Shown one piece after another: positions 37,857-53,353 of a stretch of DNA of 64,000 bases; position 1 is the first letter of the stretch; every line of letters starts with the position of its first letter. Location of the stretch: assembly GCA_030830965.1 (NCBI GenBank), contig JAURLX010000019.1, positions 62,001 to 126,000 of the forward strand, in the 5' to 3' direction. The notes under the pieces were generated by a model. That model made no database searches and was not told where the DNA came from. It saw only the letters and a program-made list of their open reading frames with translations. This DNA is from Verrucomicrobiota bacterium (GTDB lineage Bacteria > Verrucomicrobiota > Verrucomicrobiia > Opitutales > UBA953). Made by a program: the position numbers and the translations under genes.

Positions 37857-37873
37857 TTTGCCACTTCGGCAAA
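37857..37873 (+). repeat. Small inverted repeat in the leader of the ceramidase-like gene
   Basis: TTTGCC (37857-37862) - ACTTC - GGCAAA (37868-37873), a six-base-pair hairpin 20 bases upstream of the start codon and 59 after the polymerase stop. No T tract follows, so it is not a convincing terminator; it could be an mRNA leader hairpin or an operator. Confidence 0.35.
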
Positions 37874-37893
37874 TGGGCTTCATGTTCTGTCGC

Positions 37894-39384
37894 ATGAGCT
37901 CACCCCGTCTCGCCGCCTGCCTTTTCCTGGTCCTTGCCGCAATCTGCGCACGAGCCGAACTCAAGGTCGGCTTCGCCGAGCGTGACATCACCCCCGAGGT
38001 CGGTCTGGAAGTCCCCGGCGGCTACGGCAAGTCGTTCTCCAAGGTCATCACCGACCCCTGCAAGGTGCGCGCTTCGGTCTTCGATGACGGGAAGCGTCGG
38101 GTGGCGCTGGTCGGACTCGACGCGCTTATCGTGCCTCGCGACCTGGTCCTCGCCGCCCGTCGGCAGATCGTGGCCCGTTGCGGCGTCGCCGACGTGATGA
38201 TCGGCGCCTCGCACACGCATTCAGCCGGCCCAATCGGCATGGTGCAGCCCGGCGAATACGACCACGCCGACGACCTGGTGAAGGACCTTGCCTACAACAA
38301 GTCCTCCGCCGCCGATGCCAAGTACCTCGCCCGTGTCCTCGAGGCGATGGTCGCCGCGGTCGTGGCGGCGGACGCTGCCAAGGAGCCCGCCCAGACGGGC
38401 TTCGGTTCCGGACACGAGGCCACCGTCGGTTTCAACCGGCGTGTGCGCATGAAGAACGGCCTCTCGTTCTCCCATCCCGGCAAGAACAACCCTGACAACG
38501 TCGAATACGCCAACCCCGTGGACCCCGAAGTCGGCGTCATCGGCGTCTGGGACCTCAAGGGCGCCTTCAAGGGCTGCGTGGTCAACTTCGCCTGCCATGC
38601 CACGACCTCCTCGGGCGGCATCGGCGCCAGCTGGATCCGTTACACCGAGAAGGTCATCCAAGGCTACTACGGAGCCGACGCCAAGGTCGTCTTCCTGCAG
38701 GGCGCCTGCGGGGACATCACCCAAGTGGACAACCTCGACCCGACCGTCAGTCCTGCGGCCGACGACTGGAGCCAGTTCGTCGGAGGACGGGTCGGGGCCG
38801 AAGCGCTCAAGGTCCTGCTCGGCATGTCCCGCGTCCGGGTCAAGGATGCGCCCGTCGCGGCCGCCAGCAAGGTCTGGGACATCCCCAGGCGCGTGCCCGC
38901 TCCCGAACGCGTCACCGCGGCCCGTGAGCTCATCCTCAAGGACACTCCCAAGAACCCCGACTGGGTCTGGGCGAAGGAGACGCTGATGCTCGACGCCCTG
39001 ATCGCCAAGCATCCCAAGGTCGAGGTCGAGGTTCAGGCCATCCAGGTCGGTCCGGTGGTGTGCATCTCCAATCCCGCCGAATATTTCGTCTCCTACGGCC
39101 TACAGCTCAAGAAGCGCAGCGGCTTTCCGCTGACCTTCCCCGTGGAGCTCTGCAACGGCATCGTGGGCTACGTGCCCGATGAGGAGGCCTTCGGGCCCAA
39201 CGGCGGCGGCTACGAGACGCGCCTGACGAGCTACAGCAACCTGGAGGTCACCGCCGGCACGCAGATGATGGAAGCGGGCGTCGCCCTCGCCAAAGGCTTC
39301 AAGCCGATGCCGCTTCCCGTCCCGCCCAAGGCGCCGGTCGGCAGGCCCTGGCTTTACGGCAACCAGCCTCCTCAGCTGAAGTGA
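37894..39384 (+). CDS. Secreted neutral/alkaline ceramidase N-terminal domain protein
   Basis: Exported protein of 496 residues. The ATG at 37894 begins the signal peptide (SSPRLAACLFLVLAAICARA); ATGs at 37873 and 37882 are possible but add residues before it. The mature start LKVGFAERDITPEVGLEVPGGYGK, the zinc-ligand stretch IGASHTHSAGP and VNFACHATTSSGG are hallmarks of the neutral ceramidase N-terminal family. Verrucomicrobial and planctomycetal members usually lack the eukaryotic C-terminal domain, as here, and their substrates are not established; a lipid or glycoside amidase role is possible. It overlaps the following heme protein by a GTGA junction. Confidence 0.85.
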   Translation: MSSPRLAACLFLVLAAICARAELKVGFAERDITPEVGLEVPGGYGKSFSKVITDPCKVRASVFDDGKRRVALVGLDALIVPRDLVLAARRQIVARCGVADVMIGASHTHSAGPIGMVQPGEYDHADDLVKDLAYNKSSAADAKYLARVLEAMVAAVVAADAAKEPAQTGFGSGHEATVGFNRRVRMKNGLSFSHPGKNNPDNVEYANPVDPEVGVIGVWDLKGAFKGCVVNFACHATTSSGGIGASWIRYTEKVIQGYYGADAKVVFLQGACGDITQVDNLDPTVSPAADDWSQFVGGRVGAEALKVLLGMSRVRVKDAPVAAASKVWDIPRRVPAPERVTAARELILKDTPKNPDWVWAKETLMLDALIAKHPKVEVEVQAIQVGPVVCISNPAEYFVSYGLQLKKRSGFPLTFPVELCNGIVGYVPDEEAFGPNGGGYETRLTSYSNLEVTAGTQMMEAGVALAKGFKPMPLPVPPKAPVGRPWLYGNQPPQLK

Positions 39385-41903
39385 TCCTTTTCGCCTCCAT
39401 CTTCCTCGCGGCCGCGCCGGTCCAGAGCCCCCTGTCCCCGGGGGAGGCGCTCAAGGCGTTCGAGACCGCGCCCGGCCTGAAGGTCGAGCTCGTGGCCGCC
39501 GAACCGCTCACGGCTTCGCCCTGCGCCGTCGCCTTCGACGGCGAGCGTCGGATGTTCGTCGCGGAGAACCGCGGCTACCCGATCGGACCGAAAGAGGGCG
39601 AGAAGCCCGCCGGAGTGATCGCATTGCTGGAGGACGCCGATGGCGACGGACGCATAGACAAGCGGACCGTCTTCGCCGACGGACTGACCTTCCCCAACGG
39701 CGTCCTGCCCTGGAAGGGCGGGCTCATTGTCACCTGCGCGCCAGACGTGCTGTTCCTCAAGGACAACGACGGCGACGGCATCGCCGACGAGCGTAAGGTG
39801 CTCCTGACCGGCTTCGCGACGACCGGTAGCACCCAGCTGCGGGTGAACGACCCGACGCTCGGACCTGACGGATGGATCTATCTGGCAGCCGGGCTCAGCG
39901 GCGGCCTCATCACCTGTCCTTCCTATCCTGATCGTCCGGCGCTCAAGATGACCTCGGACGTGCGCTTCCATCCCGACACCCTCGAGGTGCGGTCCGTGGA
40001 CGGACGTTCCCAGTTCGGCATCAGCTTTGACGCCGCCGGCAACCGTTTCATCTGCATGAACCGCGTGCCGGTACAGCACGTGGTCTTTGACTCCAAATGG
40101 CTACGGCGCAATCCGGGCCTGGCCTTCAGCGAGACCGTGCAGGACTGCAACGAGCGCAACGCCTTCAACGGCATCAACGGCGGTCATGACGGCGTCAGGC
40201 TTTTCCCGATCAGTTCCAACATCACCACGGCCGACGGCCACGCAGGGTCCTTCAGCGCGGCCTGCGGCGTGACCGTCTGGCAGGGAAGGGGGGCGCTCAC
40301 CCCCGAGTGCGAAGACGCAGTATTCTCCTGCGACCCGACGGGCAACCTGATCCATGCCGACCGTCTTTCCCCCAGGGGCGCGACTTTCTCCGCTTCTCCG
40401 CTTTACGCGGGGCGCGAGTTCCTGGCCTCCCGTGACGACTGGTTCCGTCCGGTGTTCATCGCCCGAGGTCCGGAGGGAGCCCTTTACGTCGCGGACATGT
40501 ATCGCAAGGTCATCGAGCACCCGGACTACCTTCCGGAGGAGGTGCGCAAGCACACCGACTTCGCGACCGGCAAGAGTCTCGGGCGCATCTGGAGGGTCAG
40601 GGCCGAATCCCGTCCGGCCGCCAAGCTCGCCCCGGGCCCGCTGGAGACCCACCTCGGGGCGAAGACCCCGCGACAGCTCTTCGAGGGGGTCATCCGGCTC
40701 GGCGACGAGGCCACGCCCGACGCCGCACACCTGCTCGCCCAGGCCGCGCTGCGCGAGTCGGAGGACAAGTGGATGCGCGCCGCGGTGCTTAGCGGCGTGC
40801 AAGGTCGTGAGCGCGTCGTGCTGGAGACGATGCTCATCCATCTTCCTGAAGGCAGGAAGATCGGCTCCGGTCTGGCCGAGACGCTCGCCTTCCTGGCCCG
40901 TTCCCTTCCCGCGCCTTCCGATCTGTCCCTCGCCGAGCAGGCTCCCGAGACGGCACGACTTGCCATCCTCTCGGGTTATCTTGACGCCAAGGGCCGCAAG
41001 GTCGCAGGACTGCCTCCGTCCTTCCAGTCACTGCTCGATGATTCCGCCCGCGTGGCCGCGGATCCTTCCAAGTCCGTCGAAGAGCGCGTCGTCGCGGTGA
41101 AGCTTCTTTCACGCCTTCCTTGGGAACGAAGCGGTCAAGCGCTGCTCACTTTGGCGCAGGATGAGTCCGTGCCCGAACTCTCCGTGGCCGCGCTCAAGGC
41201 CGTCGTCACCCACCCGAAGACCGAAGTCACCGACGCTTTGCTGGCAGGGTGGTCCCGCTTCGCCCCGGCGCGACGTGACGCCCTGCTCGGGTCCCTGCTC
41301 GGCGTCCCGTTCCACGTGAAGGGCGTCCTTTCCGCCGTGGAGACCAAGCGACTGCCCGCCAGCGCCCTCGCGGGCGTGCGTCGCCGTCAGATCCTCGCTT
41401 CCAAGGACCCCGCCATCAAGGCGCAGGCGGAGCGTCTGCTGACCGCATCCGTCCGTCCTGAGGCCTTGGCCGAGGCCAAGCGGTCCTTGGACCTAAAGCC
41501 CGACCCTGCGGCCGGCCGTGCCTCCTTCCAGGCCCTTTGCTCATCCTGCCACCGGCTTGAGCGCGAAGGACACGCCGTCGGTCCGGACCTCTTCGACATC
41601 CGTCGCCAGACCAAGGAGAACATCCTCTTCCACATCGTGAATCCTGACGCCGAGATCGCGCCGGCCTTCACCGCCTATCTGGCGGAGGCCAAGGACGGGC
41701 GTGTCCTGAGCGGCGTCCTCGTGGGTGACACCCCGACGTCGATCACCTTGCGCGGTCCCTTGGGCGTAGAATCGACCCTTCTCCGCTCGGATCTGGCCAA
41801 ACTCGAGTCCCTGCCCAGTTCCCTCATGCCCACCGGCCTCGAAGCCGGCCTGAGCAAGCAGCAGCTGGCGGACCTTCTGGCCTACCTCAAGGGAGAGAAG
41901 TAA
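39381..41903 (+). CDS. PVC-type heme-binding CxxCH protein
   Basis: Secreted protein of 840 residues starting at a GTG that overlaps the previous stop. A short signal peptide (ILFASIFLAAAPVQS) is followed by a beta-propeller dehydrogenase-like domain (PCAVAFDGERRMFVAENRGYP, DADGDGRIDKRTVFADGL, DNDGDGIADE repeats, LGPDGWIYLAAG), with three Asp-rich calcium-type loops. A helical HEAT-like segment (about 430-700) follows, and then a cytochrome c domain with CSSCH at residues 720-724. This architecture is nearly confined to Planctomycetes and Verrucomicrobia, where many paralogues are linked to sugar oxidation. Redox partner and substrate are unknown. Confidence 0.92.
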   Translation: MILFASIFLAAAPVQSPLSPGEALKAFETAPGLKVELVAAEPLTASPCAVAFDGERRMFVAENRGYPIGPKEGEKPAGVIALLEDADGDGRIDKRTVFADGLTFPNGVLPWKGGLIVTCAPDVLFLKDNDGDGIADERKVLLTGFATTGSTQLRVNDPTLGPDGWIYLAAGLSGGLITCPSYPDRPALKMTSDVRFHPDTLEVRSVDGRSQFGISFDAAGNRFICMNRVPVQHVVFDSKWLRRNPGLAFSETVQDCNERNAFNGINGGHDGVRLFPISSNITTADGHAGSFSAACGVTVWQGRGALTPECEDAVFSCDPTGNLIHADRLSPRGATFSASPLYAGREFLASRDDWFRPVFIARGPEGALYVADMYRKVIEHPDYLPEEVRKHTDFATGKSLGRIWRVRAESRPAAKLAPGPLETHLGAKTPRQLFEGVIRLGDEATPDAAHLLAQAALRESEDKWMRAAVLSGVQGRERVVLETMLIHLPEGRKIGSGLAETLAFLARSLPAPSDLSLAEQAPETARLAILSGYLDAKGRKVAGLPPSFQSLLDDSARVAADPSKSVEERVVAVKLLSRLPWERSGQALLTLAQDESVPELSVAALKAVVTHPKTEVTDALLAGWSRFAPARRDALLGSLLGVPFHVKGVLSAVETKRLPASALAGVRRRQILASKDPAIKAQAERLLTASVRPEALAEAKRSLDLKPDPAAGRASFQALCSSCHRLEREGHAVGPDLFDIRRQTKENILFHIVNPDAEIAPAFTAYLAEAKDGRVLSGVLVGDTPTSITLRGPLGVESTLLRSDLAKLESLPSSLMPTGLEAGLSKQQLADLLAYLKGEK

Positions 41904-41933: not shown

Positions 41934-44270
41934 TCACCGAGATTGTCCGGAACTGGCGCCTGCGTCGACTCCTCTGACGTCCAGGTCGGGCCTGGTGTTC
42001 CAGCGCGGCTTCCAGCCCGGCTTGTCGACCTTGGTGCGGAAGATGACGGTGTTGTCCAGGGCGAGGTCGTCGCTCCAGATGAACTTGGCGCCCTTGAAGT
42101 CGTGTTCAAAGTAGGGCTGCTTGGGGTCAACCTCCTGGACGGTGTATTCCTTGGCGAAGGACCATTGGCTGTCGTCGAAGTCCACGGCCCACCAGTTGGC
42201 GGGGAGGGGATCGTGACGGACGGTCGGAGCCTTGGTGTCGCCTTTCAGCGGACCATGGAAGAAGCTGCGGGCCTTCCAGCGTCCGTCGGTGACCGTGCCG
42301 TCGGCGAACTTGAGGCAGAAGCCGCCGTCGCCGATGCTGGAACCGTATTCCATTCCCGTCTTGGGATCGGCGTTGTCCTTGGCGAGCACTGCTACCGTCA
42401 TCGGGTACTCTGGCAGGAAGTCGACGCTGACGACGTTATGCGGGGTGAAGGGGATCGGGTCGACGGCGACCAGGCGCCCGTTGACGTAGAGCATGAACCA
42501 GTTGTCGGCGTAGACGTTCAGCTTCATGGTGTCGGCGATCGTCGGCTTGACGAGGCCGGCATCCTGCCCCGCCGGCTTGCGCCGCTTGCCGTTCTCCGGT
42601 TTGGCCTTCGCTTCCGTCGGCAAGGCCGCCTCCGTGGGGGTGGCGCTGCGGGCGTAGGTGACGGTCAGCGAGGCTGAACCGAGGACCTTGCCCTTCATGG
42701 CAGCGAGGACCGTGTCGCGGGTGACTTTCGTCTCGGCGCCGGGGATGACGAGCGGAGCGGAAAGCGCGTAGACGGTGATGACGTAATGTTTGTCACCCGG
42801 ACCTTGGGAGTGCGGGGGCTCGTAGCCGACGGCGCCGCGGGAGCTCACGCCCGCCTTGCCCGGAGGCTTGGCCGCCTTGCTCAACGTGTTGAGGGACGCC
42901 GGCAGGTCCCAGAGCAGCCAGCAGGTCTTGATGCTCTCGTCGGGTGTCAGGTGATCCATCACGAGGGCGAAGCCCCGCGTCCCTGCTGGCGCGCCTTTCC
43001 ACTGCAACGAGGGCGTGATGCCGGCGCCGTCGCCCGTGAACTCGACCGGGTAGTGGGTCGGATCGGGAATGTCGGCGCTCCGCAGCACGAAGCCGGGCAG
43101 AGGCTTCTTGAGGGCATCCATGCCGAAGGCCGAAGGCGCTTCCGTCGGTTCGGGTTTCTTGCCTCCTTCGGGGCGTTTGCCTTCATCCGGCCCCTTGCCC
43201 TTGCCCTTGCCTTTGCCCCCTTTGCCGCCTTTTTCGCCTCCCTTGCCTTCGCCGCCTGGGCGCCTGCCTTCGCGGTCGTCGCCAAGGTAGGTTTCTTCTC
43301 GCTTGGAGCCGTCGGGTTCCGCGAACGTGAATTTCCAACCACCGCCTTGGGCGGGCGTGAAGTCAACCGAGCCGTTCTTGCCGCCCACCGCATAGGTCAG
43401 GTGGCCGCCTTGGCCGTTCGCTCCGGCGGTGAAGCCCGTGATCTCAGCTCCGCGTAGCGCTTGCAGGGCTGGGCGGACGGACTGGGCCCGGGGTTGCGGG
43501 TCGACCTGACCCTCCGCTTCGACGACTTCCCCGTGGAAGCCCCCGTTGATGAACGGGTAGCGCGTGGAGGCGTGGTAATGGTAACCGAGGGCCGGCGTGG
43601 TGTGTCCGTTGAAGGCGTCGAGGCCCTTCGGAGCGGAACCATCCGGCTCCGCCAGGCCATAGATGGCGTAACCATCGAGTGCGTAAGCGATCGGCAGGGT
43701 CTTGCCCAAGGTCTCCTGCAGGTGCAGCGGCGCGGCATGGTAGTGGTAGTCGTCGGCGCGGCCGCAATGACCGCCCCAGCGGTCGAGCTCGCCGATGTCG
43801 GCCGAGATCTCACCGCGATTGTTCTGCGGATTGAAGATCGGGATGCCGTTCGCCGCGATGGCGATGGCGCCGCGGAGGAACCGATTCTTGATGCTGGCGG
43901 GCGTCTTCGACGGCACGGGCTTCAGCGGGATGCGCCAGGCGTTCGTGCCGACGTAGTTCTGTGGCAGCGGTACCTGCTGTTGCCACGCCGTGATCCCGGT
44001 CATCATCCCGTGCGCCGGCAGGCCGTCGCCTTCGACGTAAAGGAACTGGTCATCATGCCGGACGCGGACTTTCGGGCTGAACAGCGCGAAGGGCTTGGCC
44101 TGCGGCGGGCCGCTGACAACGCCCACGGACGGTTTGGCCTGGGCGATCAGGGGCGGGATGCCTGCGAAGGACGCGATCGGGGCGCGCGCCTGAGCGTGTT
44201 CGGAAGAATCGTGGGCACGCAGCCAGGCGGCCGGCAGGCTGAGGCAGAGCAGGAGAAGGGAGGGGCGCAT
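41934..44270 (-). CDS. Secreted YHYH domain - PEBP-like domain fusion
   Basis: Exported protein of 778 residues from the ATG at 44270 (signal peptide ending AAWLRA). First comes a YHYH domain with the name-giving DDYHYH (about residues 172-177) and GYHYHAST (about 227-234). Then comes a Gly/Lys linker (about 335-370, repeated GGKGKGKGK). A phosphatidylethanolamine-binding-protein-like domain (about 390-540; PGFVLRSADIPDP, WLLWDLPASLNTL, HYVITVYALSAPL) follows. The C-terminal region of about 210 residues (from KLNVYADNWFMLYVNGRLVAV) looks like a galactose-binding beta sandwich. It follows the first sulfatase by four bases. Function unknown; probably periplasmic or surface-attached carbohydrate processing. 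Confidence 0.8.
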   Translation of the reverse strand: MRPSLLLLCLSLPAAWLRAHDSSEHAQARAPIASFAGIPPLIAQAKPSVGVVSGPPQAKPFALFSPKVRVRHDDQFLYVEGDGLPAHGMMTGITAWQQQVPLPQNYVGTNAWRIPLKPVPSKTPASIKNRFLRGAIAIAANGIPIFNPQNNRGEISADIGELDRWGGHCGRADDYHYHAAPLHLQETLGKTLPIAYALDGYAIYGLAEPDGSAPKGLDAFNGHTTPALGYHYHASTRYPFINGGFHGEVVEAEGQVDPQPRAQSVRPALQALRGAEITGFTAGANGQGGHLTYAVGGKNGSVDFTPAQGGGWKFTFAEPDGSKREETYLGDDREGRRPGGEGKGGEKGGKGGKGKGKGKGPDEGKRPEGGKKPEPTEAPSAFGMDALKKPLPGFVLRSADIPDPTHYPVEFTGDGAGITPSLQWKGAPAGTRGFALVMDHLTPDESIKTCWLLWDLPASLNTLSKAAKPPGKAGVSSRGAVGYEPPHSQGPGDKHYVITVYALSAPLVIPGAETKVTRDTVLAAMKGKVLGSASLTVTYARSATPTEAALPTEAKAKPENGKRRKPAGQDAGLVKPTIADTMKLNVYADNWFMLYVNGRLVAVDPIPFTPHNVVSVDFLPEYPMTVAVLAKDNADPKTGMEYGSSIGDGGFCLKFADGTVTDGRWKARSFFHGPLKGDTKAPTVRHDPLPANWWAVDFDDSQWSFAKEYTVQEVDPKQPYFEHDFKGAKFIWSDDLALDNTVIFRTKVDKPGWKPRWNTRPDLDVRGVDAGASSGQSR

Positions 44271-44274
44271 CGCG

Positions 44275-45642
44275 TTATTTGGAATTCTTGCCGCCTTTGC
44301 CGCCCTTGCGCCCTTCACGTCCACGGTCCGGAATCGTCCTGGGGTCATAGGCCGGGTTGGGTTTGACGACGCGCGGCGCGTCGGTGGCGGTCTGCCACGC
44401 CCGCAGTTTGCCGAGCAGCTCGGCGGCGCGCTTCGGATCGGAGGCGGCCAGGTCCCGGGATTCCCCGGGATCGGCCGCGAGGTCGTAGAGTTCGATTTTC
44501 TGCCCTTCGAAGAATTCGATCAGCTTCCAGTCGCCGGAGCGGATGGCGCTGCAGGGCCCGCCTCCGCCTATGTAGCTGGGGAAGTGCCAGAACACGTCCC
44601 GCGAAAGCTTGGCCTGCGGGTCTTGGAGGACCGGCACGAGGCTGCGGCCGTCAAGGTTGGCGGGGTTCGGCCTGCCGGCCAGCTGCATCAGCGTCGGGAA
44701 CCAGTCCATGCTCAGTGTCGTCACGCGGGAGGTGCCGGGCTTGATCCCGGGGGCGCGGATGACGGCGGGCACGCGGAGACCGCCTTGATACAAGGTGCCT
44801 TTCCCGCCCTTGAGCGGCGCCACATATTGGCGGGTGCCACCGTTGTCCGAGGTGAACACCACGACGGTGTTCTCCTTGAGGCCGAGTTTGTCCAGGGCGG
44901 CGAGGACGCGGCCGACGTTCACGTCCATCGCCTCGACGGTGGCGGCGAGCGCCGCGTCGGCTACGCCTTTGCGGGCCTGATATTTCTTCAGCAGCTCCGG
45001 CTTGGGGTCGAACGGCGCATGCACGTCATGGTAGGCCAGGTAGAGGAAGAACGGCTTGGCTTTGACCGACTCGACCCACTTCAAGGCGGCGTCGGTGAGG
45101 ACGTCCGGGGAGTAGCGGCCTTTCTCGTCCCGGTAGGCGTCTTTTTCGAAACCCATCTGCTTGGGTTCGACAAACACGTCGAAACCTTGTCCCGTCGGGG
45201 TGGCCGGACCCGTACGGCCACGGCCGAGGTTCCACATTCCGAAGAGTGAGGTCGCATACCCGTGGGGTTTGAGGGCTTCGGCCAGCGTGAGGCTTTCGGT
45301 CGGCATGGCCTCACGGCTCTCGGCGGCGAGCAGCTTGTGATGCGGCGAGCCTGGCGCATGACGATCGTCGACCACGGTGAAGACCCCGTGTCGCGGCGTA
45401 TACTGTCCGGTCAGCAGGCACGCCCGTGTCGGGGCGCAGTTGGGGGCGCTTGCGCAGGCTTCTGTGAAGGTCACGCCTTCGCGGGCGAGCCGGTCGAGGT
45501 TGGGCGTGTCCACGAAGCGGTTGCCGGCGAAGGCCGGGTCGTTCCAACCCATGTCATCCGCGAGGATGAAGACGATGTTGGGCTGGGCGGCCGAGGCTTC
45601 GATGACGAAGGCCAGCAGGGAAAGCAGGAGGCGGTGACGCAT
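44275..45642 (-). CDS. Secreted sulfatase with Gly/Lys-rich C-terminus
   Basis: Type I sulfatase of 455 residues that hydrolyses sulfate esters, most likely of a sulfated polysaccharide. A signal peptide (about residues 1-19) is followed by NIVFILADDMGWND (metal-binding Asp pair) and the formylglycine motif CAPTR (Cys69-Arg73). VVFTSDNGGTRQY supplies further metal ligands. The Cys form needs a formylglycine-generating or anaerobic maturase, and none is in the window. The last 15 residues are a Gly/Lys tail (EGRKGGKGGKNSK). It lies between the second sulfatase gene (20 bases upstream) and the YHYH gene. Confidence 0.92.
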   Translation of the reverse strand: MRHRLLLSLLAFVIEASAAQPNIVFILADDMGWNDPAFAGNRFVDTPNLDRLAREGVTFTEACASAPNCAPTRACLLTGQYTPRHGVFTVVDDRHAPGSPHHKLLAAESREAMPTESLTLAEALKPHGYATSLFGMWNLGRGRTGPATPTGQGFDVFVEPKQMGFEKDAYRDEKGRYSPDVLTDAALKWVESVKAKPFFLYLAYHDVHAPFDPKPELLKKYQARKGVADAALAATVEAMDVNVGRVLAALDKLGLKENTVVVFTSDNGGTRQYVAPLKGGKGTLYQGGLRVPAVIRAPGIKPGTSRVTTLSMDWFPTLMQLAGRPNPANLDGRSLVPVLQDPQAKLSRDVFWHFPSYIGGGGPCSAIRSGDWKLIEFFEGQKIELYDLAADPGESRDLAASDPKRAAELLGKLRAWQTATDAPRVVKPNPAYDPRTIPDRGREGRKGGKGGKNSK

Positions 45643-45662
45643 GACGGGGGGTCGGAGGGTGA

Positions 45663-47078
45663 TCAGGCGCCCTTCTTGCCGCCTTTGCCGCCCTTGCCGC
45701 CGCCTTTGCGCGTGGGCGGCTCCTCGCCCGGCTTGTAGGACGTCGAGGCCACGGGCAGCTTGGCGCCGGCTTCTTGCAGTCGGGCGCGCAACTTGGCTTC
45801 CAGCCTGGCGGCATCCTCCTTGCGGGAGTCGACGAGGTTGTTCCGTTCGGACGGATCCTTGGCCAGGTCGAAGAGCATGCGGGTTCCGTTCTCGTAATAG
45901 AAAACGAACTTAAGGTCCCCGTCGCGGAGACTGGAGACCGGGCTGTCACCCTGGTAATGGGGGAAGTGGAAGAGCAGGGCGCTGTCCCGTCGGACCACGG
46001 GTTGGATGCCGCCGGCGAGCAGGGGGGACAGGTCGCCGCCGTCCAGGAGGGCGGGCAGCTTTTCTTTCACGCCGGCCCAGCGGCAGAAAGTCGGGAAGAA
46101 ATCGTAGCCGACGACGGGCTGATGGCACCATGAGCCGGGAGCGACGCCCGGTCCGCGGACGATGAAAGGCACGCGGATGCCGCCTTCCCAGAGTCCGCCC
46201 TTGCCGCCGCGCAGGCCTTGGGACGTCCCTTTGCCTCCTTTGCCGCCCCCGCCCCCGCCGCCGTTGTCGCCCATGTAGATCACGTAGGTGTTCTTCTCAA
46301 GGCCCAGCGCCGCGATGGTCGCCAGCAGCTTGCCGACGCCCGTATCGAGGTCGTAAGCGATGGCCGCCCGAGCGGGGTCATGGTGCAGTTTGCCAGGGGT
46401 CTTGGCCTCGAACTTGGCCAGGCTGGAGCGGTTGGCGTTCTCGGGCACGTGCAGGGCATGATAGGACATCTGCAGGTAGAAAGGCTTACCCGCCTTGACG
46501 TTCTTCTCCATGAACGTCTTGGCGCGGTCGGTCATCCCGAAGATGTCGACGGGGTTAGGATCCTTGTGCGCGTCGGCGTCGCGGTTGCCGGTGTCGCCGT
46601 CGCTCACGTCATAGCCGTGTTTCTCGGGGCCGCTGCCGCCCAGGTGCCATTTGCCGAAGTGGGCCGTCGCGTAGCCGCTCCTGCGCAGCAGCTCGGCGAA
46701 GGTCACCTCCTCGTCACGGATCGCCTTGCGGTTGTCGCCTTCGGTCAGTTTGTGGCCGGTCTCGGCCGGGGCGGCCTTGGTCCAGCCCAGCCGGGCCGGC
46801 GTCATCCCGGTCTGCAGGCTGATGCGGGTCGGGGAGCAGACGGGCGCCGGCGCGTAGCCGTTGCTGAAGCGCATGCCCTGGGCCGCGAACTTCTCCAGGT
46901 TGGGCGTCTCGAAGAAGTCGCTACGCGATTCGGGGATGTCCGGATGCATGCGGACGGAGAGTCCGTTCCAGTCCTGGTCGTCCGACAGCAGCAGGATGAT
47001 GTTCGGACGCGGATCGGCGGCCAGGGCCGGGACGATGCCGCATGACAGCAGGGTGACGATGATGGCTAGCGTTCTCAT
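45663..47078 (-). CDS. Secreted sulfatase with Gly/Lys-rich C-terminus (second copy)
   Basis: Type I sulfatase of 471 residues. A signal peptide ends PALAAD, NIILLLSDDQDWNG supplies metal ligands and the formylglycine motif is CSPTR (Cys81-Arg85). The active-site loop YMGDNGGGGGGGKGGKG has an enlarged run of glycines. The C-terminus ends in GGGKGGKGGKKGA. Only moderately similar to its neighbour (different linker and specificity loops), so probably a different sulfate position. Start is at the ATG at 47078, overlapping the anti-sigma-like gene stop by an ATGA junction, so expression is coupled to the regulator. Confidence 0.92.
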   Translation of the reverse strand: MRTLAIIVTLLSCGIVPALAADPRPNIILLLSDDQDWNGLSVRMHPDIPESRSDFFETPNLEKFAAQGMRFSNGYAPAPVCSPTRISLQTGMTPARLGWTKAAPAETGHKLTEGDNRKAIRDEEVTFAELLRRSGYATAHFGKWHLGGSGPEKHGYDVSDGDTGNRDADAHKDPNPVDIFGMTDRAKTFMEKNVKAGKPFYLQMSYHALHVPENANRSSLAKFEAKTPGKLHHDPARAAIAYDLDTGVGKLLATIAALGLEKNTYVIYMGDNGGGGGGGKGGKGTSQGLRGGKGGLWEGGIRVPFIVRGPGVAPGSWCHQPVVGYDFFPTFCRWAGVKEKLPALLDGGDLSPLLAGGIQPVVRRDSALLFHFPHYQGDSPVSSLRDGDLKFVFYYENGTRMLFDLAKDPSERNNLVDSRKEDAARLEAKLRARLQEAGAKLPVASTSYKPGEEPPTRKGGGKGGKGGKKGA

Positions 47079-48049
47079 GGTTCTGAAATGACGGGGCGGT
47101 CCGCCTCATGATGGGTCTCATGGCGGAAGAAATCGTCGGACAAGGTCTCCCCTGGCTGAAGAAGCAGTTCGATGCTTCGGGGGCCGCCTTGGCCCCTGGG
47201 CATCTGCCGCAGGATGAGTCGTTCGATGGAGCCGTCCGCGGGGTCGTACCAGATCTCGACCTCCTTGGGGCCGCCGAGTTCGGAATCATCGCGCAGCGCG
47301 CGCAGCTTGCGCACATCCGGCGAATGCCGGTCGACCCACTCCACTCGGTATCGCCTTCTGATGCTGTCAAGATGGTCTCTCACCTCGAGGAAGGCCACGT
47401 TGCCCGTCGGCGCGAAGAGGGCACGTCCGAAGCGGGCCGGATCCGCGCTGACTCTGACCGGTCCGGTGCCGCGCATCATCCAGCTCCCGGTCCGATCGCC
47501 GCCGAACATGCGAATTTCGCCATTGGGCAGGCTCTGACGGAGCAGGAAATCGCCCCGGCCCCTGATCCAAAGGGTCGCTCCATCCAGATGGTTGTTGGGA
47601 GGGTAGGCGCCGCGCCCTTCGGATGAGTCCTCAGGTCTGCCTGGCTCAAGAACCCGGACCGCGTAGGTCCGGGTCAATGGCTTCTCGGCCGCGAGGGCGA
47701 GCTGTTCGAGCGAGGCCATCGCATCGGACGGACGAAGCAGGAAGGTGGCCGTCATGACGGCGGCCGCCACGGCGGCGGCCGCGAGCCAGGCGCCCCGCCT
47801 CCAGGGGGAGGCGGCACGGTGTTCACCGATGCGTCTGAAGAACGCGTCGGGATCCCTGCCGAGGGCGCCCTCGAGTCCCTCCTGGCATAGCATGGCATGC
47901 AGGACTGCATGATCGGCCATGCGGCGTCGGTGCCGCGGACTCCGCCTCAGAAGCTCGGCCAGGGCGGCGCGGCCGGAATCGTCCGTCATTCCGTGCAGCA
48001 TCTCCAGCGCAAGGTCATCCAGCTCCTTCATGTCATCGGAGTCGTTCAT
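47075..48049 (-). CDS. Putative transmembrane anti-sigma factor
   Basis: Protein of 324 residues from the ATG at 48049. An N-terminal cytoplasmic helical part of about 85 residues (LDDLALEMLHG, LAELLRRSPRHRRRMADHAVLHAML) resembles anti-sigma/FecR-type inhibitor domains. One transmembrane helix (about 87-105, AWLAAAAVAAAVMTATFLL) follows, then a periplasmic domain of about 215 residues of unknown fold. It overlaps the sigma factor gene by ATGA, the usual arrangement of a sigma factor with its own inhibitor. The regulatory role is inferred from this context and topology; no HxxxCxxC zinc motif is present. A plain regulator of the sulfatase genes downstream is the simplest reading. Confidence 0.65.
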   Translation of the reverse strand: MNDSDDMKELDDLALEMLHGMTDDSGRAALAELLRRSPRHRRRMADHAVLHAMLCQEGLEGALGRDPDAFFRRIGEHRAASPWRRGAWLAAAAVAAAVMTATFLLRPSDAMASLEQLALAAEKPLTRTYAVRVLEPGRPEDSSEGRGAYPPNNHLDGATLWIRGRGDFLLRQSLPNGEIRMFGGDRTGSWMMRGTGPVRVSADPARFGRALFAPTGNVAFLEVRDHLDSIRRRYRVEWVDRHSPDVRKLRALRDDSELGGPKEVEIWYDPADGSIERLILRQMPRGQGGPRSIELLLQPGETLSDDFFRHETHHEADRPVISEP

Positions 48050-49876: not shown

Positions 49877-51766
49877 TCAGACTTCCCAGTCTTCGCCCTT
49901 GCCGGCGAGGATGCGGTCGATGGCCTGCAGGACCTGGTCCGCGGCCTGTTCGGTCGTGGTGCGGTCGGTACGGACGTGGACTTCGGGGGATTCGGGCGTC
50001 TCGTAGGGCGAGGAGATGCCGGTGAATTCGGCGATCTCACCCTTGCGGGCCTTCGCGTAGAGTCCCTTCACGTCACGCTTTTCACAGACTTCCAGCGGGG
50101 CGTCGACGAAGACCTCGATGAAGGGATGGTTGGCTAGCGCGGCCCGCGCCTTGGCGCGGTCGGCGGCCAGCGGTGCGATGAGCGTGACCAGCGCGATCTG
50201 GCCGGCGTTGGCGTGCAGTCCCGCCACGGCGGCGGCGCGACGCACGCTTTCGGCACGGTCGGCGGCGGAGAAGCCCAGGTCGCGGTTCAGCCCGGCGCGC
50301 AGGTCGTCACCGTCGACCCGGATTACGTTGCGTCCCGCGTCGAAGAGGCGACGTTCGACCAGTTCGGCGACGGTCGACTTGCCCGAGCCCGACAGGCCCG
50401 TGAACCAGACCACCGCGGGCGGGTGTCCGGCTCGTGCGGTCCGTTCGGCCGCGGTGACCTTGCCGGAGCCCTTGCCGCCTTCGGAGCGGGCTTCGAGGAT
50501 GATGCCGCCTCCGTGGATGCGTCCGCCTTCCTCCAGGGCGAAGCGGCCCGTCACCGGGCACTCGTGATGCAGGTCGAAGGCGATGGGGCGCGTGGCGCGG
50601 ACGATGATTTCGCAGATGGAGTCACGCGGCACCGAATCGGACGGCACGGATTCGAGCGTCGAGGCGTCGGTGACCTTCTCGATCTTTGCCACGACCGCCT
50701 CGACGTTCTGGGTCAGCAGTCGCAGACGGTAGGTCTTGGAGGGCACCAGAGGCTCCTTGCCCAGCCAGAAGACACGGGCGCGGAACTCACGTCCGACGCG
50801 GGGCTGGGACGTGGCGTGCGAGGCGATCTGGCCGCGTTCGACGAAGATCTGCTCGGTCAGCGTCACGCTGGCGGAGCCGCCCGTGCCGACGACGTCCCGG
50901 GAAGGGCCGGACCAGTCCTCGAAAGTCTTGGCCACGCTGCGACGGCCTCCCGGCTGGAAGACCAGCTCCTCTCCGGGGCGGACGGCTCCGGCCTCGACGC
51001 GGCCGGCGACGATGCGCCGGTGGTCGAATCGGTAGATATCGGAGACCGGCAGACGGAGCGGGAGACCCGTGAGGTCGTCCTCGTGCGCGAAGGTGTCCAG
51101 CGCTTCCGTGACCGTCGGGCCGCGCCACCAGGCCATCTTGGCCGAGCGTTCGACCACGTTCTCTCCGTGCTTGGCGGCGATCGGGATGAAATGGGCGGCC
51201 TGCAGGCCGAGCGACTTCAGGAAGGCGGAGTATTCGGCGACGATGCGACGGTAGGTCTCCTCCGAGTGATCCACCAGGTCCATCTTGTTCACCAGCACGA
51301 CCAGCTGACGCACCCCGAGCAGGGAGAGCAGGAACGCGTGACGCCGTGACTGGTCCATCACGCCCTCATGGGCGTCGATGAGCAGCAGGGCGGCCGAGGC
51401 CGAGGCGGCGCCGGTGACCATGTTCTTGAGGAACTCCTTGTGGCCCGGGGCGTCGATGATCGCGTAGGCGCGCTTCTTGGTGCGGAAGAAGATGCGCGTG
51501 GTGTCGATGGTGATGTTCTGCTCCTGCTCCTCGATGAGGGCGTCGAGCAGGAAGGCGTATTCGAACTCCATGCCTTCGGCGGCGCAGTTGCGACGGACCT
51601 GGTCCATCTTGCCGTTGGGCAGCGAGTCGGTGTCGTGCAGGAGCCGCCCGACGAAGGTCGACTTGCCGTGGTCGACATGGCCGACGACCACCACGTGCAT
51701 CTTGCGTTGGTCCTCGGCTTGTTCGGCCGCGGGTGCGTTGGGAAGGGGGGAAGGGGAGGTGGACAT
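49877..51766 (-). CDS. cysNC: Bifunctional sulfate adenylyltransferase large subunit / APS kinase
   Basis: Fusion of 629 residues. Residues about 1-430 are the GTPase subunit of ATP sulfurylase (with CysD makes APS): GHVDHGKS (29-36), DAPGHKEF and VNKMDLVD, followed by EF-Tu-like beta domains. From about residue 445 is APS kinase (CysC): P-loop GLSGSGKST (about 455-463), VDGDDLRAGLNRDLGFS and a complete C-terminal part (FVDAPLEVCEKRDVKGLY, GISSPYE). The ATG at 51766 lies 11 bases after the cysD stop; the long open frame upstream overlaps cysD and is not coding. The product should be PAPS. Confidence 0.95.
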   Translation of the reverse strand: MSTSPSPLPNAPAAEQAEDQRKMHVVVVGHVDHGKSTFVGRLLHDTDSLPNGKMDQVRRNCAAEGMEFEYAFLLDALIEEQEQNITIDTTRIFFRTKKRAYAIIDAPGHKEFLKNMVTGAASASAALLLIDAHEGVMDQSRRHAFLLSLLGVRQLVVLVNKMDLVDHSEETYRRIVAEYSAFLKSLGLQAAHFIPIAAKHGENVVERSAKMAWWRGPTVTEALDTFAHEDDLTGLPLRLPVSDIYRFDHRRIVAGRVEAGAVRPGEELVFQPGGRRSVAKTFEDWSGPSRDVVGTGGSASVTLTEQIFVERGQIASHATSQPRVGREFRARVFWLGKEPLVPSKTYRLRLLTQNVEAVVAKIEKVTDASTLESVPSDSVPRDSICEIIVRATRPIAFDLHHECPVTGRFALEEGGRIHGGGIILEARSEGGKGSGKVTAAERTARAGHPPAVVWFTGLSGSGKSTVAELVERRLFDAGRNVIRVDGDDLRAGLNRDLGFSAADRAESVRRAAAVAGLHANAGQIALVTLIAPLAADRAKARAALANHPFIEVFVDAPLEVCEKRDVKGLYAKARKGEIAEFTGISSPYETPESPEVHVRTDRTTTEQAADQVLQAIDRILAGKGEDWEV

Positions 51767-51777
51767 GGTTCCGGAAA

Positions 51778-52599
51778 TCACATGAAGCCCTTGGCGCGCA
51801 GCTCCTGCATGGAGTTGCGTCCGACGTGATCCTGGGCGCGGCCGGCGCGTTCGCTCACCTTCGTGCGCCGGAGCTCCTCGATGACCTCGTCGATGTTGCT
51901 GGCGTCGCTGTCGACGGGGTGGGTGATCGGATGGCAGCCGAGGGAGCGGAAGCGCTTGCCGTTGCGGGAGTAGTAGAGGGTGGGGTTCGGGATGTTCTCG
52001 CGGCGGATGTACTCCCAGATGTCGAGCTCGGTCCACTCCAGGAGCGGCTGGACGCGGATGTGGCCGCCCTCGGGGGCGACGCTGGCGAACTGTCCCCAGA
52101 ACTCCGGCGGCTGGTCCTTGTAATCCCAGGTGCTGTCGGCGGTGCGGGGGGAGAACCAGCGCTCCTTGGCCCGGGTGGGGTCTTCGTCGCGGCGGATCCC
52201 GGTCACCAGGGCGTCCCACTTGTATTCGGCAAGCGCCTGCTTGAGCGCCACGGTCTTGAGCTCGTGCGTGACCGTCACGGGGTCGTGCGTCGCGTATCCG
52301 ACCCCTCTCCGGATGGCGTCCTCGTTGATGCGGACGATCAGGTCGATGCCATGGATCGCCTTCGCCTTCTCCCGGAACTCGTACATCTCAGGGAACTCGT
52401 AGGTCGTGTCGATGTGCAGGAGCGGGAAGGGAATCTTGCCGCAGAACGCCTTGCGGGCGAGCCAGATGAGGACGTTGGAGTCCTTGCCCATCGACCAAGG
52501 CATGCAGACGGAGCGGAAGTTGGCGAAGGCCTCGCGGAAGACGTGGATGGACGTCTGCTCGAGGCGGGTCAGATGGTCGTTCTGTGCGGTTCGTGACAT
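51778..52599 (-). CDS. cysD: Sulfate adenylyltransferase small subunit
   Basis: Catalytic PP-loop subunit of ATP sulfurylase, making APS from sulfate and ATP together with CysN. From the ATG at 52599 it has 273 residues. The PP-loop is SMGKDS (36-41), followed by PLLHIDTTYEFPEMYEFR, VTGIRRDEDPTRAKERWFSPR and the Cys-containing GCHPITHPV near the C-terminus, which ends KGFM. E. coli CysD is about 300 residues; the difference is at the start. It lies 43 bases after cysH. The N-terminal frame extends further open but over cysH. Confidence 0.95.
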   Translation of the reverse strand: MSRTAQNDHLTRLEQTSIHVFREAFANFRSVCMPWSMGKDSNVLIWLARKAFCGKIPFPLLHIDTTYEFPEMYEFREKAKAIHGIDLIVRINEDAIRRGVGYATHDPVTVTHELKTVALKQALAEYKWDALVTGIRRDEDPTRAKERWFSPRTADSTWDYKDQPPEFWGQFASVAPEGGHIRVQPLLEWTELDIWEYIRRENIPNPTLYYSRNGKRFRSLGCHPITHPVDSDASNIDEVIEELRRTKVSERAGRAQDHVGRNSMQELRAKGFM

Positions 52600-52642
52600 T
52601 GGCTGGAGAAAGACAGGTGGACGATGAAGGGCGTCTGGCGGC

Positions 52643-53353
52643 TCACTTTCTGGTGCGGGTGTGGAGCCCGCACTCCTTCTTGTCGAAGCCGGGCCAGCGG
52701 CCGGCACGCTCGTTGCCGGCCGAGGTGGGCGCGGTGCAGGGAGCACAGCCGATCGAACGGTATCCGCGGTCCATCAGCGGATTGTGCGGCAGTCCGTGGC
52801 GGGAGAGGTACTCCTGGACGCGCTCCCTGGTCCAATCGACGAGCGGGTTGAGCTTCCAGACATCCGACCCGTCCGGACGTCCGGCGAGGCTGAGGAGCGG
52901 CGTGGAGGCGCGTTCGGCGCTTTGGTCCCGGCGGAGTCCGGAGATCCAGAGGTCGAGTCCGAAGAGATGTCGCCCGAGCGGCTGCACCTTGCGCAGCTCG
53001 CAGCATTTTTCCGGGTCGCGTTTCCAGAGCTCAGCCCCGTGCTCGGCGGCCTGCTGTTCGACCGTCCGTTCCGGCTCCACGTCGTCGACGACGATGCCGA
53101 GGATGCGTTCGATCTCGGTCTTGAAGGTGAGCGTCTCCGGAAAGAGCAGGCCCGTGTTCAGCGTGAAGGCCCGGATGGGCAACCCTGCGGTCTTCGCCAG
53201 GTGCAGGATGACCACGCCTGCAGGCTGGAAACTGGTCCCGATGCCGGCGCGGTCGCCGAAGGTCTCGTGGGCCCAGCGCAGACGATCCACCGGCGCCAGC
53301 GACGACAGATGGGCGTCGAGTTCCGGGATGCGGGCTGGATCGAGTTCGGCCAT
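52643..53353 (-). CDS. cysH: Assimilatory (P)APS reductase with 4Fe-4S cysteines
   Basis: Thioredoxin-dependent reductase of 236 residues (ATG at 53353) that reduces APS or PAPS to sulfite. The active-site Cys is in the C-terminal ECGLH (227-231). In addition it has the CC (117-118) and CxxC (CAPC, 203-206) pairs that bind a 4Fe-4S cluster in APS reductases and in the dual-specificity enzyme of Bacillus subtilis; E. coli-type PAPS reductases lack them. LNTGLLFPETL and ISGLRRDQS line the substrate site. It follows the sulfite reductase gene by eight bases. Substrate preference is therefore uncertain given the APS kinase domain nearby. Confidence 0.93.
   Translation of the reverse strand: MAELDPARIPELDAHLSSLAPVDRLRWAHETFGDRAGIGTSFQPAGVVILHLAKTAGLPIRAFTLNTGLLFPETLTFKTEIERILGIVVDDVEPERTVEQQAAEHGAELWKRDPEKCCELRKVQPLGRHLFGLDLWISGLRRDQSAERASTPLLSLAGRPDGSDVWKLNPLVDWTRERVQEYLSRHGLPHNPLMDRGYRSIGCAPCTAPTSAGNERAGRWPGFDKKECGLHTRTRK

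Follow-up and report, generated by a model that had tools for sequence, protein, structure and literature searches.

Within a 64-kb stretch of DNA (hereafter, the window) from the 1.8-Mb, 87% complete genome of a freshwater bacterium of the Verrucomicrobiota, the listing of open reading frames (ORFs) places three consecutive minus-strand ORFs between positions 41934 and 47078, and these encode two exported sulfatases and a YHYH protein that carry segments rich in glycine and lysine (G/K segments). The sulfatases, S1 (45663-47078, 471 amino acids [aa]) and S2 (44275-45642, 455 aa), match PF00884 with Pfam scores of 151 and 201 bits, respectively (cut-off 25), and their translations contain CSPTR and CAPTR, which fit the C-x-P-x-R formylglycine motif. 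The third gene encodes an exported YHYH-PEBP fusion protein (41934-44270, 778 aa from the ATG at 44270); an ORF of 804 aa (41934-44348) is possible, and the 44270 start fits the gene calls better. This protein contains a YHYH domain (PF14240, 43653-43937), a PEBP domain (PBP, PF01161, 42654-43049, assigned by Pfam) that is a gene of its own in the paralogous operon described below, a low-confidence Lys/Pro-rich second linker in the structure model (residues 541-578, 42537-42650) and a C-terminal beta-sandwich domain (41937-42590), all on the minus strand. The gene run is kept in the nearest relative, G027, where the S1, S2 and YHYH proteins are 91-93% identical; those relatives that bear names in the genome set are freshwater Opitutae and other Verrucomicrobiota.

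The translations bear out the earlier note on this DNA, which had described GGKGGK tails on both sulfatases and a matching linker in the YHYH protein. S1 ends in ..TRKGGGKGGKGGKKGA and S2 in ..GREGRKGGKGGKNSK, and the interior of the YHYH protein contains ..GGEGKGGEKGGKGGKGKGKGKGPDEGKR... On the minus strand, these correspond to a G/K-rich C-terminal tail of S1 (residues 454-471, 45666-45719), a G/K/R-rich C-terminal tail of S2 that follows a conserved NPAYDP (residues 440-455, 44278-44325), and a G/K-rich linker from the YHYH part to the PEBP domain (residues 333-380, 43131-43274). Across the six frames of the window, GGKGGK occurs in these three segments and once more within S1 (46247), in a G/K-rich insert (residues 273-284, 46227-46262, minus strand) just before a conserved LRGGKG segment. 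This insert is a further G/K element, absent from the earlier note, and it adjoins a predicted active-site loop; the S1-like sulfatase of locus L217 has a similar Gly-rich insert. Save for the insert, which lies in a loop, the S1 and S2 segments are outside the folded domains, and the YHYH linker, also basic and outside the catalytic fold, is predicted to be disordered (model confidence ~30). The domains bearing the segments had been called unrelated, which holds for sulfatase versus YHYH; S1 and S2 are paralogues (~40% identical), so that two kinds of protein are involved rather than three.

In the bacterium's own genome, a DNA pattern coding for KGGKGG occurs four times, three of them in this locus, and the same pattern reversed does not occur. 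The fourth lies within a further exported protein, encoded on a 4-kb contig, and is not a tail. Among the 526 called proteins on three contigs, only S1 and the YHYH protein contain G/K-rich 16-mers (0.00 expected after residue shuffling).

The segments recur in homologues, with composition conserved and sequence not. A G/K- or K-rich tail is present in all 12 S2 orthologues (at least 50% identity) with a complete C-terminus, and these tails differ in sequence, although a few are mutually identical (L082, at a contig end, and L091, with masked bases, were set aside). YHYH proteins without PEBP (type a) have a bipartite G/K linker, in most cases with an acidic middle, in 21/21 loci readable through the junction, a count that leaves out L159 (too short), L154 and L155 (which end before the junction), and L181 and L182 (which repeat L136 and L137). 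The genus also contains a second, paralogous YHYH-sulfatase-PEBP operon, in which G/K 12-mers are found in the YHYH C-terminal tail (20/20), the sulfatase C-terminal tail (20/20) and an N-terminal extension of PEBP (18/18); they occur in 0 of the 58 folded bodies versus 58 of the 58 proteins carrying a segment, in a sample where two loci have no PEBP hit and some species are very close (L164 and L165 are near-identical). Because the segments are present in homologues (12/12, 21/21 and 58/58), the objection that the earlier note had itself raised, that tails might be absent there, falls away. In species that have S2 at another place, the gene beside it encodes a metallophosphoesterase in which a stretch such as KKGKGGKGG directly follows an N-terminal signal. 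Four unrelated kinds of protein therefore carry segments in shared neighbourhoods: sulfatase, YHYH, PEBP and, in other species, metallophosphoesterase.

Several observations accompany these counts. Metallophosphoesterase-like neighbours of S2 orthologues with a G/K stretch are found at L345, L346, L349, L350, L353 and L354. The YHYH-PEBP fusion occurs in many Verrucomicrobiota and a few other metagenome-assembled genomes, often beside a basic-tailed S2-like sulfatase. G027 has YHYH fused to PEBP and a paralogous YHYH-sulfatase operon that has no separate PEBP gene (L176, L177), and Prosthecobacter-like relatives (L214, L215, L222, L227) have EF-hand-like repeats, as judged by eye, in the YHYH-PEBP linker. 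The second YHYH protein of the bacterium's own genome (C12, L314) has no adjacent sulfatase and only a short basic C-terminus.

Across the genus, the KGGKGG pattern is present in 42/55 genomes, with 173 matches versus 16 for the reversed pattern. Among the matches listed (123, in 28 genomes), YHYH, sulfatase, PEBP and S2-neighbour loci account for 88 and other sites for 35; this tally covers the genomes comparable with known loci, and listed matches of other genomes are not counted. When 29 loci were opened, one per genome, the proteins proved by sequence to be YHYH (14), PEBP (2) or metallophosphoesterase (5), and the remaining 8 comprised an exported pilin-like protein, an exported HlyD-like protein, two small G/K-tailed proteins and four chance frames or unplaced matches. 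Twenty of the matches at other sites were retrieved: 9 read in frame with a called gene, 5 overlap a gene but read in a different frame, and 6 fall outside all called genes. Of the 9 in frame, 8 have an N-terminal signal-like stretch and 1 is cut at its 5' end. Gene-frame matches in credible genes are thus nearly all in exported proteins, the outcome that the earlier note had named as support for a surface-localisation element. One cytoplasmic protein with a G/K 16-mer was found in the gene calls of G064 and is presumably ribosomal protein L2. Small exported proteins of ~130-170 aa with G/K-rich stretches were seen at L360, L367, L370 and L374; the small G/K-tailed protein L327 (the same gene as L360) has a start that looks signal-like, and neither it nor the similar L328 has a Pfam match.

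Spread of a repeat by local recombination had been put forward as an alternative, and the two sulfatase tails give it limited support. The S1 and S2 tails have 25 identical bases in common, and their codons show 2 silent differences to G027 at 33 sites versus 247/806 in the bodies (p = 0.0014), so that local homogenisation of these neighbouring tails is plausible. The YHYH linker differs in both respects, sharing at most 11 bases with either tail and having more, not fewer, silent differences to G027 than its body (13/41 versus 118/679, p = 0.034). In other proteins and species the segments differ in sequence and codons, which are mixed over a G+C range of 0.54-0.67, and it is the Gly/Lys frame that is used in these proteins, nearly confined to exported ones. 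One DNA repeat spreading to all of the proteins is not plausible on these grounds, and we regard as very unlikely the general form of the idea, in which slippage and local gene conversion would have spread a GGC-AAG repeat with no selection on the peptide. Lys codon choice showed no difference between tails and bodies (p = 0.36). A role of the purine-rich tail as a ribosome site for the next gene was considered and rejected: a same-strand gene begins within 60 bases after 8/15 tailed and 10/17 untailed sulfatases.

A wider trait, Lys-rich C-terminal tails, is associated with sulfatases beyond this locus. We scored the three contigs of the bacterium's own genome (526 called genes, 504 of them of at least 100 aa) with a strict rule that calls for at least 5 Lys and a net charge of +4 in the last 20 residues. 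Tails of this kind are found on 12/31 exported sulfatases, 3/182 other exported proteins and 0/291 non-exported proteins (sulfatase versus other exported, p = 3.7e-9). The bias towards sulfatases holds under all five tail rules that we applied; the plain contrast of exported with non-exported proteins is weaker or gone under rules that weight Arg equally with Lys. S2, with its 4 Lys and 3 Arg, does not itself pass the strict rule. When 48 sulfatases were placed on a tree (a quick tree with no mixture model), a tail label defined as at least 4 Lys and a net charge of +4 took 13 changes versus 15.1 for shuffled labels, and at least 9 changes are forced by the starred branches, which argues that the tail is scattered or recurrent and was not inherited as one block. 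Other genomes replicate the trait unevenly. In G058, 3/6 sulfatases versus 3/101 other exported proteins have tails by a looser rule (p = 0.0019), and 1/6 versus 2/101 by the strict rule (p = 0.16); contig C12 of G064 has no sulfatase on it. At 80 YHYH loci in named genomes, a basic tail is present in 25/40 YHYH-adjacent sulfatases, several of which are over-long or shifted frames, versus 4/18 others (p = 0.0096), and a second rule gave 20/40 versus 4/18 at the same loci (p = 0.08).

The restriction of terminal Lys-rich tails to exported proteins in the bacterium's own genome, under the strict rule, could also be read as a sign of covalent cross-linking, with Lys joined to other enzymes or the envelope, or of a sorting signal read by a secretion machine. 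The segments can be N-terminal, internal or C-terminal, unlike a sorting signal, and the cross-linking that the earlier note had listed found no support, though no systematic search was made for motifs linked to sortase, exosortase or transglutaminase; we consider either role highly improbable.

A bias of Lys-rich tails towards sulfatases is what would be expected if the tails bind a sulfated polymer, and the reading that we favour, tentatively and at somewhat less than an even chance, is a disordered polycationic tether by which enzymes belonging to one pathway stay attached to a glycan that is anionic and probably sulfated. The G/K stretches are disordered, polycationic segments added outside the folds of exported enzymes, placed as C-terminal tails on sulfatases and YHYH proteins, as an N-terminal extension on PEBP and metallophosphoesterase, and as linkers within fused YHYH proteins. 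They would most likely act as weak, multivalent electrostatic tethers to a common anionic glycan, which could be the sulfated substrate, or else a polymer of the slime or envelope in which the substrate becomes concentrated. As sulfate is removed, the local charge would fall and the enzyme could slide or be released. What the sequences show is the position and make-up of the segments, the conservation of that make-up without conservation of sequence, their place on exported proteins and their occurrence in the products of neighbouring genes; from this we infer polyanion binding, a sulfated glycan as the probable ligand, and co-recruitment of the enzymes. Polyanion binding is the best available of the ideas in the earlier note, the interpretation of which is partly supported overall, and anchoring to the surface by the segments is a candidate role only.

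Several results weigh against the tether. The tail thresholds were chosen after the first tails had been seen, and export was assigned by a home-made signal-peptide rule. Genome-wide, 16/50 sulfatases with a readable end pass the strict rule and 34/50 are without a tail. Other genera of the order are without such tails: tailed sulfatases number 0/10 and 0/7 in G055, 0/8 in G043 and 1/7 in G047, and G063 gave 2/12 and 0/7 when examined twice with some overlap. With almost none in the first three genomes and a weak signal in the fourth, we rejected the generality of Lys tails across the order. The wider search found some YHYH-adjacent tails to be G/R/P-rich rather than G/K-rich, and the high share of Gly fits a plain flexible linker equally well.

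This last point belongs to an account in which the segments are neutral flexible spacers that separate domains or aid solubility, have no ligand, and resemble one another as the linker type favoured by the lineage. The stretch in type-a YHYH proteins is a true interdomain linker, the model confidence in the YHYH linker is ~30, and some tails are Gly/Pro-rich with few charges, all as a spacer would have it. C-terminal tails, however, connect nothing, neutral spacers leave the Lys bias towards sulfatases unaccounted for, and the finding of G/K 16-mers in just 2/526 proteins argues against this being a linker in general use in the lineage; we think the spacer account rather unlikely. Distinctly unlikely, in our view, is a protein-protein assembly tag, by which G/K segments would join operon partners, for example through the acidic blocks of type-a YHYH linkers or through co-condensation with a polyanion. 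Such a tag would suit segments that are common to operon partners of unrelated folds, type-a linkers that alternate basic and acidic blocks, and YHYH and PEBP proteins that have a gene each in one operon and form a fusion in other places, but no acidic partner segment was seen in the sulfatase proteins, and free Lys-rich tails are also found on sulfatases outside these clusters.

A bolder form of the tether reading, which we hold to be doubtful, is that the segments are a composition-coded module, by means of which exported enzymes of four unrelated folds, encoded in shared neighbourhoods in one Verrucomicrobiota lineage, partition into the same anionic glycan phase, each fold having acquired its segment in a different place (N-terminal, linker or C-terminal). 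If true, this would be a bacterial extracellular counterpart of condensate-type recruitment. How the exported enzymes of such bacteria remain on a soluble charged substrate is a question that a small, deletable segment common to the enzymes of one operon makes testable. The tie to sulfatases is also a handle on the poorly understood YHYH and extracellular PEBP proteins. Literature searches confined to an open-access collection listed nothing about G/K or Lys-rich tails in bacterial sulfatases, nor about a YHYH-sulfatase-PEBP cluster.

Upstream of S1 on the same strand are a protein that has no family match (47075-48049), for which an anti-sigma-like role is suggested by its position beside a sigma factor, and that sigma factor, which is of the ECF type and belongs to the Rhodopirellula/Verrucomicrobium family (TIGR02989, 48046-48564); G027 has the same gene order. 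About 3 kb from the sulfatase run, genes at 49877-52746 resemble subunits of sulfate adenylyltransferase in sequence, and they would perhaps use sulfate freed by the sulfatases. Genes at 37858-41903 are convergent to the run; one product is a PVC-type haem-binding CxxCH protein, and another resembles ceramidase with a score below the cut-off.

The C-terminal domain of the YHYH protein was modelled separately, since the full-length fusion model is poor (mean predicted local distance difference test [pLDDT] 51), and gave a pLDDT of 85.7. The model has a beta-sandwich fold that matches a GH78-N/CBM67-like domain: it aligns with a non-catalytic domain of the Streptomyces avermitilis rhamnosidase (3w5n; Z 10.1, root-mean-square deviation 3.4 over 120 residues, 24% identity), which we take to be CBM67, binding rhamnose, and with a Pleurotus ostreatus lectin (6kc2; Z 9.8). 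It also has a weak sequence match to 2okx (E 0.025). Pfam gave no clear hit to this domain in 28 members, 2 of which touch Bac_rhamnosid_N (best E 0.12), and searching with a profile built from the YHYH alignment gave no convincing relative among solved structures (best E 0.028). The resemblance to the rhamnosidase domain and the lectin is one of fold only; likeness to a lectin is no demonstration of function, and sugar binding by the domain is putative.

Comparison with known systems gives these proteins a glycan context, which counts in favour of the tether. Genomes of freshwater Verrucomicrobia are described as rich in sulfatases and in functions for the degradation of fucose and rhamnose, and sulfatase-rich Verrucomicrobiota have been suggested to degrade sulfated glycans in lakes and seas (PMC5615132). 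Among solved structures, the best match and nearest relative of both S1 and S2, the latter being S1_16-like, is AMOR_S1_16A (PDB 9FO1), an S1_16 enzyme reported as an exo-acting kappa-carrageenan sulfatase (PMC11760155). Its aligned part stops at the NPxYDP segment, where the S2 tail begins, and shows no G/K tail, unlike S1 and S2; the S1 insert aligns near a variable loop by its active-site pocket. YHYH domains in jumbo phages are predicted to be metal-dependent hydrolases (PMC7824862); the window protein matches the family (PF14240) above the Pfam cut-off, and here the domain is joined to PEBP and to a lectin-like domain in a protein encoded next to sulfatases. YbhB/PEBP genes are described as rarely fused or in conserved operons, in passages of that account which make no mention of YHYH (PMC8793217).

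Our working comparison is with human Sulf-1 and Sulf-2, which, like S1 and S2, are exported sulfatases that carry an extra region, the HD domain, which is basic and poorly structured. The HD domain occupies the centre of the protein and makes up much of it, whereas the segments in the window are ~10-50 residues long, terminal or in linkers, Gly-rich, and present on non-sulfatases as well. We claim no descent between the two, the sequence being of low complexity, and no family membership for the G/K segments beyond that of the folded domains. As described for the human enzymes, the HD domain is needed for recognition of heparan sulfate and for localisation at the cell surface, and activity on polymeric heparan sulfate depends on it (PMC3890690); by analogy, the tails of S1 and S2 may serve their enzymes in a similar way.

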